From Thalassotalea sp. HSM 43 (GTDB lineage: Bacteria; Pseudomonadota; Gammaproteobacteria; Enterobacterales; Alteromonadaceae): a DNA stretch of 64,000 nt. Position numbers and translations under genes: made by a program. This document shows positions 46,753 to 49,725 of the stretch, piece after piece (the first letter of the stretch is position 1; every line of letters begins with the position of its first letter). The DNA lies in contig NZ_CP038493.1 of NCBI RefSeq assembly GCF_004752005.1, positions 3,062,302 through 3,126,301 on the forward strand, given 5' to 3'. The notes below the pieces were generated by a model. The model searched no databases and was not told the origin of the DNA. It saw only the letters and a program-made list of their open reading frames with translations.

Positions 46753-48384
46753 TTAAGCTCCTTGCTCGTGCACAGCGTCTACGTTGGCATTAGCGATGCG
46801 AATCGCATTTAGCACCGCTTGCGCTTTTTGTCTGGTTTCGTCGGCTTCCGCTTGGGGCTGTGAGTCATAAACGACACCTGCTCCGGCTTGCACTAAGGCG
46901 CGGCCGTTTTGGACAAAGGCAGAACGAATCACGATACACGTGTCCATTTCACCTTGGCCGGTAAGGTAACCAACGGCGCCACCATAACTGCCACGGCGTT
47001 TGCCTTCTATTTGGCGGATAAGTTTGGTTGCCATCACTTTAGGTGCGCCGGACAACGTACCCATATTCATACAGGCTTGATAGGCATGCAGGGCGTCAAG
47101 TTGCGGCTGTAAGGTGCCGACGACGCGAGACACTAAATGCATAACGTGTGAATAGCGGTCCACTTTCAATAATTCGGCGACAAAGCGCGTACCGCCTTCG
47201 CTAACTCGGGCAATATCATTGCGGGCTAAATCCACCAACATCAAATGCTCAGCTTTTTCTTTTTCATCGTTACGTAATTCCAATTCAATACGACCATCAA
47301 GATCGTCACAATAACGGCCATCGCTGCGAAAGCCGCGTGGACGAGTACCGGCAATCGGGTATAGCTCAACTTGGCGTGATTCACTGGAAAACTTTAATGC
47401 CGATTCTGGGCTGGCACCAAATAAACAATAGTCCTGATCTTTTAAGTAAAACATATAAGGGCTTGGGTTGGTTTTCTTCAACGCCTTATATGCAAGTAGT
47501 GAGTCTGGGCATGGTAAGCTAAAACCACGGGATGGCACGACCTGAAAAATATCACCGGCTCTGATGTTTTCTTTCAAGGTTTCTACTTGTTGGCAAAATT
47601 GCTCATCACCAATATCGACATCGGCGTGTTGCGTGGTTTTACGTTGCAAATCCAGATCAGCGCCGATGTAAGCTTTTTCACAACGAAACTGCAATTCTGC
47701 CAATCGTAATTTACTTTTTAAGATGTAGTCATCATGACGGCTGTCATCGGTTATCAAGCTATTGACGATGATTTCACTGCTTTGTTGTTGATGATCGATA
47801 ACAATCAAAGATTCGGCAAAATAAAATACATAATCAGGGCAGCTGTTTTCTCCGTCTTGAACCGTTGGCAGGGTTTCGCTCATGGTAATTAAATCAAATG
47901 AAAAGCAACCGCCTAAAAACACCGAAAATGGGTGGTCGTCACTTTTAACTTGTTGAATTTGGCGAATAACTTGCATTGGGTTGGTGGCCAATAATCGCGA
48001 CATTTCATCGAGTTGCTGGACATTGTCTGCAAATTCGACCACTAAAGTATCGTTGCTTAATTCAAGGCTTATTTGCGATTGTTGTGCCAATGTTGATTGC
48101 AAGTAGCTTAACAATAAGTGGCCTTGTTGTTGCAACGCAGTGATGGTTACTTGATTGCCATTGCATACGATTTTTAAATGCGCGTCGACAAGAATAAGAG
48201 ACTTTAATGCGCGCTTATCACTTATTTCGGCCGACTCGAGCAATAGCGAATGCTCACTTTGTTGGCTGAGTTTTTGATATAGCGCTAATGGGTCTGACTG
48301 ATACGGTGCAGCCAGCGTTTGCGTGCAAACTCGTAATGAGTCGCAAACCGCAGATAGATTGTTTTGTTCAGTGTTGGTATTCAT
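46753..48384 (-). CDS. trpE: Anthranilate synthase component I
   Basis: Converts chorismate to anthranilate with ammonia from TrpG. The product is 543 residues. The Trp feedback-inhibition motif LLES is at about 48-51, and the chorismate-binding domain contains GASPESALKF, PIAGTRPRG and the C-terminal GAGVVYDSQPQAE. The ATG follows AAGG with an 8-base spacer. That spacer and the start codon can pair with an upstream Trp-rich mini-ORF (see the regulatory entry). First structural gene of the operon. Confidence 0.96.
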   Translation of the reverse strand: MNTNTEQNNLSAVCDSLRVCTQTLAAPYQSDPLALYQKLSQQSEHSLLLESAEISDKRALKSLILVDAHLKIVCNGNQVTITALQQQGHLLLSYLQSTLAQQSQISLELSNDTLVVEFADNVQQLDEMSRLLATNPMQVIRQIQQVKSDDHPFSVFLGGCFSFDLITMSETLPTVQDGENSCPDYVFYFAESLIVIDHQQQSSEIIVNSLITDDSRHDDYILKSKLRLAELQFRCEKAYIGADLDLQRKTTQHADVDIGDEQFCQQVETLKENIRAGDIFQVVPSRGFSLPCPDSLLAYKALKKTNPSPYMFYLKDQDYCLFGASPESALKFSSESRQVELYPIAGTRPRGFRSDGRYCDDLDGRIELELRNDEKEKAEHLMLVDLARNDIARVSEGGTRFVAELLKVDRYSHVMHLVSRVVGTLQPQLDALHAYQACMNMGTLSGAPKVMATKLIRQIEGKRRGSYGGAVGYLTGQGEMDTCIVIRSAFVQNGRALVQAGAGVVYDSQPQAEADETRQKAQAVLNAIRIANANVDAVHEQGA

Positions 48385-48455
48385 GGTTTACCTTAATGTG
48401 TAATTCGAGATTATTTATCCGGCGTAAAGTGGCTGAAGCCACCAGATAAACCACG
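48382..48455 (-). promoter_or_regulatory. Possible translational switch over the trpE start codon
   Basis: CGUGGUUUA (48455-48447) and UAAACCAUG (48390-48382) can form nine consecutive pairs (one G-U), covering the trpE AUG and the base next to its AAGG. The upstream strand includes the first UGG codon of the mini-ORF at 48415-48477. An alternative fold, UUUAUC/GAUAAA around GUGGC-UUCA-GCCAC (48414-48450), uses the same UUUA and excludes the first. Inferred logic: a ribosome stalled at the Trp codons frees the trpE start, whereas completed translation lets it be sequestered. Confidence 0.45.
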
Positions 48456-48477
48456 TTTTTACTTTATTTGTTAACAT
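48415..48477 (-). CDS. Second Trp-rich leader mini-ORF upstream of trpE
   Basis: A 20-codon ORF (ATG 48477, TAA 48415) with Trp at codons 9, 12 and 13 (TWFIWW), ending 30 bases before trpE. It lies downstream of the trpL attenuator, so is made only in transcripts that escape termination. Its ribosome-binding site is weak (GGA 13 bases upstream). Three Trp in 20 codons is far above the usual frequency of this rare residue. I interpret it as a regulatory leader peptide; it might be fortuitous. Confidence 0.5.
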   Translation of the reverse strand: MLTNKVKTWFIWWLQPLYAG

Positions 48478-48570
48478 CTTATAGAATTCCGTTTAATTTC
48501 AGAAAGTGTCGTTTTTTATATCAAATCAGATTTACGAATATGCCCACTCGGGTGATCAGTAAGCAAATAC

Positions 48571-48598
48571 AAAAAAGCCCGCTATAAGAGCGGGCTTT
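48571..48598 (-). terminator. trp attenuator terminator
   Basis: On the minus strand AAAGCCCGCT-CTTAT-AGCGGGCTTT followed by T residues: a 10-bp intrinsic terminator 34 bases after the trpL stop and 187 bases before trpE. Confidence 0.92.
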
Positions 48599-48622
48599 AG
48601 AAAAACTGCATGCAGCAAGACT

Positions 48623-48646
48623 CATAACCCACTAGTCAAGGTTATG
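48623..48646 (-). promoter_or_regulatory. trp attenuator pause hairpin and antiterminator strand
   Basis: CATAACC (just after the Trp codons) pairs with GGTTATG to form the 1:2 hairpin. AGTGGGTT (48633-48626), overlapping its second strand, can instead pair with AGCCCGCT of the terminator (6 Watson-Crick and 2 G-U pairs), giving the 2:3 antiterminator. This is the standard attenuation arrangement. Confidence 0.8.
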
Positions 48647-48688
48647 CCACCACCAGATATTTGTCATTGTTGCTGCGTTTGTCATCAT
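48632..48688 (-). CDS. trpL: trp operon leader peptide
   Basis: An 18-residue peptide ending IWWWHNLD with three consecutive Trp codons (48647-48655), followed by alternative hairpins and a terminator. Ribosome stalling at the Trp codons when charged tRNA-Trp is scarce should favour the antiterminator. Two adjacent ATGs (48688, 48685) are possible starts; the ribosome-binding site is weak. Confidence 0.88.
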   Translation of the reverse strand: MMTNAATMTNIWWWHNLD

Positions 48689-48729
48689 TATTTCAATTCG
48701 TTTGTTGTTCAGAGCAGCGTATTCTCGGT

Positions 48730-48759
48730 TAAATAGCGTACGTTGCCTGTTAATTTCAA
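48730..48759 (-). promoter_or_regulatory. Candidate trp operon promoter
   Basis: On the minus strand TTGAAA, 18-base spacer, TATTTA; the predicted start near 48723 lies 35 bases before trpL. A CGTAC-containing stretch overlaps the -10 region but does not match the TrpR operator well. Confidence 0.5.
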
Positions 48760-48846
48760 CTGTAAACACGTAAAATGCTTAGATACTTATCTTAATTGAT
48801 AAACACCTAAAGTGCTTGATTATTTATAGGAAAACGTAAAACGACC

Positions 48847-49725
48847 ATGAAGTCAATACAAAGCGCAGAAAATATGTCAGATGATTACAAATTAATACGC
48901 GTTGATTTGCATTCGCATACAACCTGCTCTGATGGACGTTTAACACCCGCTGAACTTGTCGAGCGCGCGACGACCTTCCAAATCGAGCAATTGGCCATCA
49001 CCGATCATGATACCGTACAGGCATTTGCGCTAGCGCAAGATTATATCGAGCAAAAAGGATTAAAGTTGCGCCTGATCAGTGGTATTGAAATATCAACGAT
49101 GTGGCAAAATTTTGAAATTCACATTGTTGGCCTTAATGTTGATACCCAACATCCGGCATTAACCGCTTTGATTGAACAACAGCAACAAGCTCGCGAACAA
49201 AGGGCGACGTTAATGGCTGAAAAACTGGCTAAGGCTGGCTTTGCTGATTGCTACCAACAAGCGAAGCAATACGCAGGAGATGGCACCATAACGCGGGCTC
49301 ACTTTGCGCGGGTGCTGTTTGATCGCGGCGATGTCAGCACCATGCAAAAGGCATTTGATAAATATATCGGTAAAGGTCAACGCGCGTTTGTTAAGCCTCT
49401 GTGGTGTTCAATAGAACAAGCAATCGAAGTGATTAATCTCGCTGGTGGTCATAGCGTTATTGCGCATCCAATGAAATATAGCTTATCAACCAAGTGGTTA
49501 CGTCGACTAATTGTTGATTTTAAAGCCGCAAATGGCGATGCTATGGAAGTGGCTTCGCCACAAATGAATGAGCAGCAACGTCAGTTGTTGGTCACACTCT
49601 GTAATGAGTATGGACTAGAAGCGTCTGTAGGTTCCGATTTTCATTACCCTAACCGATGGAGTGAGTTAGGGCGTAATCTGCAGTTAAAAAGTGATGTGAG
49701 CGGTATCTGGCGTCACTGGAATTAA
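48847..49725 (+). CDS. rnm: PHP-domain 5'-3' exoribonuclease (RNase AM, formerly TrpH/YciV)
   Basis: A 292-residue PHP-family metal-dependent phosphoesterase. E. coli Rnm (YciV) matures the 5' ends of ribosomal RNAs and degrades short oligonucleotides. The metal-binding motifs are DLHSHTTCSDG near the N-terminus, AITDHD, GIEIST and VGSDFHYP near the C-terminus. The second Met (48874, MSDDYKLIRVDLHSHT) resembles the E. coli N-terminus, so the true start may be there. Divergent from trpE, as in enterobacteria; followed by yciO after 9 bases. Confidence 0.92.
   Translation: MKSIQSAENMSDDYKLIRVDLHSHTTCSDGRLTPAELVERATTFQIEQLAITDHDTVQAFALAQDYIEQKGLKLRLISGIEISTMWQNFEIHIVGLNVDTQHPALTALIEQQQQAREQRATLMAEKLAKAGFADCYQQAKQYAGDGTITRAHFARVLFDRGDVSTMQKAFDKYIGKGQRAFVKPLWCSIEQAIEVINLAGGHSVIAHPMKYSLSTKWLRRLIVDFKAANGDAMEVASPQMNEQQRQLLVTLCNEYGLEASVGSDFHYPNRWSELGRNLQLKSDVSGIWRHWN

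Follow-up and report, generated by a model that had tools for sequence, protein, structure and literature searches.

A conserved second Trp-codon leader between the trp attenuator and trpE in Thalassotalea sp. HSM 43 and its relatives: a probable translational attenuator

The trp operon serves as the textbook example of attenuation, and the locus described here raises the question of what a second small Trp-rich open reading frame (ORF) does between an ordinary attenuator and the first structural gene. The window, i.e., the whole stretch of 64,000 nucleotides (nt) analyzed from Thalassotalea sp. HSM 43 (contig NZ_CP038493.1), carries trpE, the gene of anthranilate synthase component I, at 46753..48384 on the minus strand (Pfam Anth_synt_I_N and Chorismate_bind). 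Along this strand, the order is trpL (48688-48632), its terminator hairpin (48598-48574), the second leader ORF, here called ORF2 (48477-48415), 30 bases between the TAA stop of ORF2 and the ATG at 48384, and trpE. ORF2 (MLTNKVKTWFIWWLQPLYAG; 48415..48477, minus strand) consists of 20 codons plus TAA and has Trp at codons 9 (48451..48453), 12, and 13 (together 48439..48444), as described in the original prediction, which was made by reading the window sequence. From its conservation and position and from modeled RNA folding, ORF2 is probably a Trp-codon translational attenuator that is stacked on the transcriptional one.

A profile of ORF2 matched 98 of 395 sampled genomes of the window's family at E ≤ 4.8e-8, with one match per genome and a gap to the next value (E = 0.0024). 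Among 394 genomes drawn from the order, 12 matched at E ≤ 0.01; 10 of these belong to the window's family, and the remaining two matches, in family f18, are weak (E 0.005-0.009). Three ORF2 peptides searched against NCBIfam up to E 1 gave no family match, with low sensitivity at 20 amino acids each. A scan of 84,980 species with the pattern WWL[QL]P[LI]YA led to 78 confirmed named loci, which are titled Thalassotalea, Colwellia, Litorilituus, Cognaticolwellia, Thalassomonas, Pseudocolwellia, or unresolved relatives, and in one case Endozoicomonas; we take the first six genera to be Colwelliaceae. The gene after ORF2 is readable in 77 of the 78 loci and, by its N-terminal sequence, is trpE in 62 and a DAHP synthase gene in 15 (L077, L078, L080-L089, L091, L092, and L151; checked against Pfam in L077 alone), where it heads the trp operon. 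Since ORF2 precedes either gene, the element tracks the first gene of the operon and not trpE as such. Among the 30 best TrpE loci, which were chosen irrespective of ORF2 (29 in the window's family and L030 in another), an intact ORF2 stands before the first gene in 20 and is absent in 8, whereas it is diverged in L026 and damaged in L003.

The window and loci L001-L030 and L076-L153 gave 86 unique sequences after identical segments were collapsed (L031-L075 were unused); L003, which has lost the C-terminus, was excluded by hand, and L026 failed the collecting expression. All three Trp codons are TGG in 86 of 86 sequences, which the collecting expression requires. In the named loci, the next gene lies mostly 28 to 50 nt 3' of ORF2 and farther away in L076, L079, L092, and L151. 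The distance from the ORF2 stop to the first plausible ATG has a median of 35 nt (quartiles 33-38, range 28-50, n = 81 of the 86), and this range is partly imposed by the script, which accepted 26 to 55 nt only; L019, L024, L092, L110, and L131 have no start within these limits and were omitted from the spacing and pairing tests. The profile matches, the codon constancy, and the peptide-level selection described below rule out a chance ORF or mere spacer. By these comparisons ORF2 is conserved, and so are its three Trp codons, whose conservation in relatives the original prediction had proposed as a check.

The first Trp codon lies in segment 1 (CGUGGUUUAUC; 48445..48455, minus strand), which faces segment 4 (GGUAAACCAUG; 48382..48392, minus strand) at the beginning of trpE. 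The original prediction had pointed to nine complementary positions (48455-48447 with 48390-48382) reaching the trpE start codon; the complementarity is present and extends to 11 contiguous pairs (48455-48445 with 48392-48382), including two G-U pairs, and it takes in the entire start codon and the GG of the putative Shine-Dalgarno sequence UAAGG (48391..48395, minus strand). The energy of this 1:4 duplex, -13.6 kcal/mol, was matched by none of 200 dinucleotide-shuffled spacers. Across the collection, the pairing reaches a shuffle P ≤ 0.05 in 20 of 81 sequences, which are not independent of one another. The hairpin that had been proposed to compete for the same bases does not do so as a whole: in the lowest-energy fold of the window RNA, its inner part, GUGGC-UUCA-GCCAC (48429..48442, minus strand), is nested within the 1:4 pairing, and only the outer UUUAUC/GAUAAA arm would compete. 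The TAA that this arm requires is replaced by TGA in 82 of the 86 sequences, and the UUUAUC/GAUAAA hairpin was therefore rejected as the main alternative fold. Pair counts of the inner hairpin show a single double change, from C-G to U-A in L002; two pairs are disrupted, one of them in one sequence and the other in two. In the window clade (the window, L002, L005, L007, L008, L010, and L012), 96% of the cells of the 1:4 helix are paired and 8 of its 11 pairs are invariant; of the other three, two vary on one side and one is broken in three sequences, and no pair varies on both sides.

The RNA folded began 15 nt 5' of ORF2 and ended 25 nt inside the gene; 31 masked bases stood for a ribosome, and the readout was the unpaired fraction of the start region (-13 to +3). 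The set for the swap comparisons comprised 119 items clustered to 65 (L220 and L221 were dropped, L215-L219 had no assigned start, L205 and L242 lacked the motif, and L214 was not included). The start region of the window is 0.25 unpaired in the free RNA; placing the first Trp codon in the A site raises this value to 0.67, and placing the stop codon there lowers it to 0.10. In the window clade, the predicted value rises from 0.20-0.47 to 0.60-0.68 with the ribosome at the first Trp codon, more weakly in L002; in L005, L007, and several loci of family f25, the start tested belongs to a third mini-ORF and not to trpE. When the ORF was held and the start region was swapped for those of other clades, a change as large as the native one was obtained in 0 of 25 swaps for the window and L010, 1 of 25 each for L008 and L005, 2 of 25 each for L012 and L007, and 7 of 25 for L002. 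Two members of a Colwellia group with TWFLWW, L100 and L108, also open (1 and 0 of 25 swaps, respectively), and L142, L113 (3 of 25 each), and L103 (5 of 25) are less clear. A ribosome placed at the ORF2 stop leaves the start shut in six of the seven window-clade members (0.10-0.29; 0.54 in L002) and open in many other sequences, and a ribosome parked at the stop could act in either direction.

Reading of the trpE upstream regions across the order revealed second Trp ORFs of a different type, TGG CGA TGG (WRW), between the attenuator and trpE. They occur in all four genomes of f12 (L198-L201), in 18 of 20 loci of f25 (WRW-type loci L202-L213), and in 21 of 24 of f11 (L222-L245), with W-R-stop in two more; f25 is presumably Aeromonadaceae and f11 resembles Psychromonas. 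The other trpE upstream regions read, e.g., those of single genomes of f6, f9, f10, and f18 and of members of the window's family outside the Colwelliaceae, contained no second Trp ORF. The ORF of L026 (WRIRWQ) looks intermediate between the WRW and WFIWW types. For folding, the ORFs of f11, f12, and f25 were collected with TGGCGATGG or TGGCGATAA, which biases their codon constancy, while listings that asked for only two Trp are free of this bias. In f11, AUCCUUAA or a variant lies in the codons just 5' of the Trp codons and faces the trpE Shine-Dalgarno sequence AAGGA. The predicted opening of the start goes from 0.44 to 0.70 (16 representatives, positive in 15), a change of 0.26 compared with 0.03 with a swapped ORF2, and when the flanks are lengthened, the start region pairs mainly with the stretch 5' of the Trp codons in 15 of 16 (0.12-0.81), the exception being L239. 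The helix between this stretch and the Shine-Dalgarno sequence is 84.6% paired in the f11 alignment (A3; 17 of 23 sequences, with L225, L231, L234, L236, L237, and L241 left out and L244 taken from its second ATG) vs 31 to 56% after a shift of one to three columns; its covariation score is equaled or exceeded in 10 of 500 shuffles, and RNAalifold gives a weak consensus for this alignment (-1.1 kcal/mol). Opening is also predicted in f12 (0.34 to 0.55; three of three representatives) and f25 (0.43 to 0.55; six of eight, four of them at 0.15 or more). Thus, at least two unlike second leaders occupy one place with one predicted logic.

Several features of these leaders were noted in passing. TGGCGAT is identical in the 17 aligned f11 sequences, including L243 and L244, which have lost the second Trp codon; the heptamer is required by the collecting pattern, and the pattern-free listings likewise have CGA for Arg. 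In L215-L221 (f25, genus g68), the second ORF is lengthened to 44 to 46 amino acids and ends shortly before trpE, with a conserved acidic C-terminus, D.DIASQVIRQ(I/V)PDD; the one copy submitted to NCBIfam had no match. By eye, a third mini-ORF is present at the expected trpE start in L005, L007, and L011 (Thalassotalea) and in some f25 loci such as L202 and L203, and its overlap with the trpE start codon suggests translational coupling. In L203, complementarity links the start of the mini-ORF, CGCCATG, to the Trp-Arg codons of ORF2, CATGGCG.

A number of observations weigh against a start codon gated by ORF2. No compensatory double change was found in the 11 pairs of the window-clade helix among its seven sequences, a comparison of low power with eight pairs invariant; the covariation that the original prediction had asked for is lacking to this extent, and the pair counts are compatible with a switch yet give it no covariation support. 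The predicted change is near zero or negative in the DAHP-synthase group and in the C. psychrerythraea-like group; L015, L018, L021, L022, L096, and L122 shift in the opposite direction; and the 1:4 pairing is missing in much of the Colwelliaceae. The mean change over 38 Colwelliaceae representatives is 0.11 vs 0.06 with a swapped ORF2. When ORF2 instead of the start region is swapped, the window is unexceptional, 25% of the swaps reaching its change, perhaps because TGGTTT sits in nearly every ORF2 of the Colwelliaceae; we think that the special part of the window pairing is the AAACCATG start region. Outside the family, two of the eight f25 representatives (L208 and L212) are negative, and with longer flanks the free start of some f11 loci is less closed (0.26 to 0.41 unpaired in L229 and 0.22 to 0.59 in L230), that of L223 being 0.61 unpaired. 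Moreover, among 15 genomes from the window's genus, 7 have a strong profile match, 7 are without an intact ORF2 in the trpE locus, and L003 retains VKTWFIWW but has lost the C-terminus, its frame running into trpE. Relatives with a disrupted or Trp-free ORF, which the original prediction had named as refuting it, thus exist in part of the genus; we read this pattern as probable lineage-specific loss. A universal RNA switch is rejected on these grounds, since outside the window clade and part of Colwellia, where it is strong, the 1:4 pairing is absent. The ribosome-gated trpE start of the original prediction is partly supported.

At the ORF2 position of L004, L006, and L013, all from the window's genus, there is a Trp-free ORF of 33 amino acids that starts with MFL.. 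and ends near trpE. It keeps an ORF2-like Shine-Dalgarno sequence and start and looks like a natural replacement of the Trp leader.

The mechanism that we infer, from the translation of ORF2 to the stalling at its Trp codons and the direction of control, is as follows. RNA that extends beyond the ordinary attenuator would bear ORF2 directly before the first structural gene, and in the window clade the segment around the first Trp codon would pair with the Shine-Dalgarno sequence and start codon of trpE, which closes trpE. When charged tRNA-Trp is scarce, polymerase would pass the attenuator, a ribosome would wait at codon 9, 12, or 13 and cover the segment, and the trpE start would be open. 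When Trp is plentiful, the ribosome would reach the stop and leave, the pairing would re-form, and the translation of trpE would drop even on existing mRNA.

The peptide itself has features that the original prediction missed, namely, a conserved C-terminus and, in relatives, a UGA-C stop. Over the stretch that begins with the first Trp and ends with the last Gly, the proportion of synonymous differences (pS) is 0.65, that of nonsynonymous differences (pN) is 0.056, and their ratio is 0.087 in 20 TrpE-retrieved sequences (19 distinct), for which the collecting expression still demanded WF/Y/L-x-WW-L/H-Q/L and nothing further; these are less biased than L076-L153, where the residues WWL(Q/L)P(L/I)YA are biased by the search pattern. 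Gly20 is invariant in 86 of 86 sequences through three codons, and Ala19 is invariant with four codons, though it lies inside the search pattern. All 86 sequences have the same spacing between W9, the first Trp, and the stop, whereas the N-terminus varies in length and sequence (mostly 18 or 20 amino acids in all). Of the 86 stops, 82 are TGA and 84 are followed by C, compared with 7 TGA-C among 341 stops of long open frames in L076-L153 (at least 180 codons, both strands, some perhaps not genes). Entropy after the stop is 0.16 at +1 and at least 1.3 at +2 to +14. Over the Colwelliaceae as a whole, judged from these substitution patterns, the nascent peptide WF(I/L)WWL(Q/L)P(I/L)YAG, mostly before Gly-UGA-C, is under selection. 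Readthrough of the UGA by tRNA-Trp into the spacer was considered and dropped, since the frame after the stop closes at differing distances (few sequences, by eye).

Pure codon counting needs no fixed C-terminus or stop, whereas a nascent chain held at termination would, and the RNA folding does not explain either feature. UGAC is a weak termination signal and is also the context of the prfB frameshift. The conserved peptide and the UGA-C stop therefore suggest slow or arrested termination as a second sensor in the Colwelliaceae, and our leading idea for them is that termination is delayed or arrested, perhaps in a Trp-dependent manner. Taken to its full extent, this becomes a rival explanation in which ORF2 is mainly a nascent-chain arrest peptide like TnaC: the peptide in the tunnel, perhaps with free Trp, would block RF2 at UGA-C, the parked ribosome would control initiation a few tens of nucleotides downstream, and Trp would be conserved for its residues over decoding. 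The low pN/pS ratio with drifting third bases, the invariant Gly20, the stop and its following C beside variable bases downstream, and the fixed W9-to-stop distance are all expected of such a peptide. In PMC7246954, peptide release is described as inefficient or slow after a C-terminal Pro or Gly, and the last residues modulate termination at UGA; according to PMC8429421 and PMC10941005, TnaC depends on W12, D16, I19, and P24 and on a UGA stop, behind its terminal Pro, where RF2 binds but cannot act. On the other hand, the window copy ends in UAA-A, L002, L017, and L022 end in UAA, and L163 ends in UAG; the D16 and terminal P24 of TnaC have no counterpart in ORF2; the WRW leaders of the other families lack this C-terminus; and in E. 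coli, TGA is the leakiest stop with G, not C, as the worst following base (PMC11126739). Weighing both sides, we consider this explanation possible but rather doubtful. Equally tentative is a combined proposal, in which ORF2 would represent a new class of nascent-chain sensor that arose where no TrpR is recognizable: WF(I/L)WWL(Q/L)P(I/L)YAG with a slow Gly-UGA-C would arrest on free Trp, while the stall at the Trp codons sets the fold. If so, the same 20 codons would read both charged tRNA and the amino acid in setting the translation of the first enzyme, and simpler WRW versions would exist in other families of the order.

Alternatively, ORF2 could yield a free peptide that works in trans, either as a small regulator or as a membrane peptide, for which peTrpL of Sinorhizobium is a reported precedent (PMC7298713). 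Conservation at the amino acid level would fit such a role; however, in the 77 named loci with a readable next gene, ORF2 stands in cis ahead of the gene that heads the operon, and its conserved stop context would be needless for a free peptide, so that we hold this to be very improbable. Least probable of all is a second transcription-termination decision, intrinsic or Rho dependent, in place of control of initiation: the leader peptides of trp operons usually act on transcription, but the sole terminator-like site in a scan of 48380-48860 is the trpL attenuator, and the 30-nt gap would leave little space for a Rho site.

The transcriptional layer on which the translational attenuator would be stacked is of the ordinary kind and was correctly recognized in the original prediction. 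The first leader peptide ORF, trpL (MMTNAATMTNIWWWHNLD; 48632..48688, minus strand), has three adjacent Trp codons, with IWWWHN or similar in many relatives, and many of the trpE regions read contain trpL-like attenuators. The terminator hairpin with its T tract (48574..48598, minus strand) lies inside an Rfam Trp_leader (RF00513) match at 48658-48569, which is below threshold (30.2 bits, E = 0.00076; gathering score, 41). No Rfam family match up to E 5 overlaps ORF2 on the minus strand. A consensus promoter scan of the minus strand between the terminator and ORF2 found none; it carries little weight, since the promoter of the operon itself was also missed. The divergent neighbor (48847-49725, plus strand) encodes a PHP-domain protein (Pfam PF02811). 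The Trp repressor TrpR (PF01371) was not found above the curated cutoff in any of the 395 family genomes or in the genome of the window, while the E. coli and B. subtilis controls gave a signal; we take the partial matches below the cutoff in 27 of the 395 to be probably other helix-turn-helix proteins. This absence extends over the family and hence does not track ORF2; without a recognizable TrpR, the control of trp probably lies elsewhere.

With a second leader in about 100 sampled genomes of one family and unlike ones in three further families, many Gammaproteobacteria would meter TrpE, or the first enzyme of the aromatic pathway, at two steps, the completion of the mRNA and then its translation. 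Such double metering would explain how the enzyme is shut off on existing mRNA in bacteria with no recognizable TrpR. The conserved peptide and its UGA-C stop also provide a candidate new ribosome-arrest peptide that can be tested directly. Searches of the open-license PMC literature gave no account of a second leader in any gammaproteobacterial trp operon, although subscription papers could hold one.

Among known systems, TnaC resembles ORF2 as a short Trp-bearing leader with residues conserved toward its end and, in most Colwelliaceae copies, a UGA stop (UGA-C in 82 of 86, UAA-A in the window). By eye, the ORF2 alignment does not match W12, D16, I19, and P24 with their spacing, as these residues are given in PMC10941005; moreover, the genes downstream of ORF2 make Trp, whereas tna degrades it. 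As in the E. coli trpL attenuator, a version of which lies upstream in the window as well, Trp codons of a leader ORF would gate the same pathway, but ORF2 is predicted to pair with the trpE start region, and the terminator scan gave no site 3' of it. Translational attenuators of the erm type share the principle that a stalled leader ribosome frees a sequestered start site; there the stall comes from a drug and here it would come from a shortage of aminoacyl-tRNA, and the arrangement of the RNA differs. The leader of B. subtilis rtpA, the anti-TRAP gene, is named rtpLP. Like it, ORF2 is a small Trp-codon ORF directly 5' of the regulated start. Folding predicts a sequestered start that the ribosome would open in the window clade, part of Colwellia, f11 (15 of 16), f12 (three of three), and f25 (six of eight), though not in the DAHP-synthase or C. 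psychrerythraea-like groups. Sensing of uncharged tRNA-Trp in two layers is already known from rtpA, where transcriptional and translational sensing act in tandem (Chen and Yanofsky 2003, 2004, as cited in PMC11255114); downstream translation is set there by tRNA-Trp-dependent stalling in tandem with a transcriptional sensor, as proposed here for ORF2. The first stage of rtpA is a T box and its target is the anti-TRAP gene, whereas the first stage before ORF2 is a ribosome-mediated attenuator, the target would be trpE or DAHP synthase, the hosts are Gammaproteobacteria, and the leader peptide is conserved.

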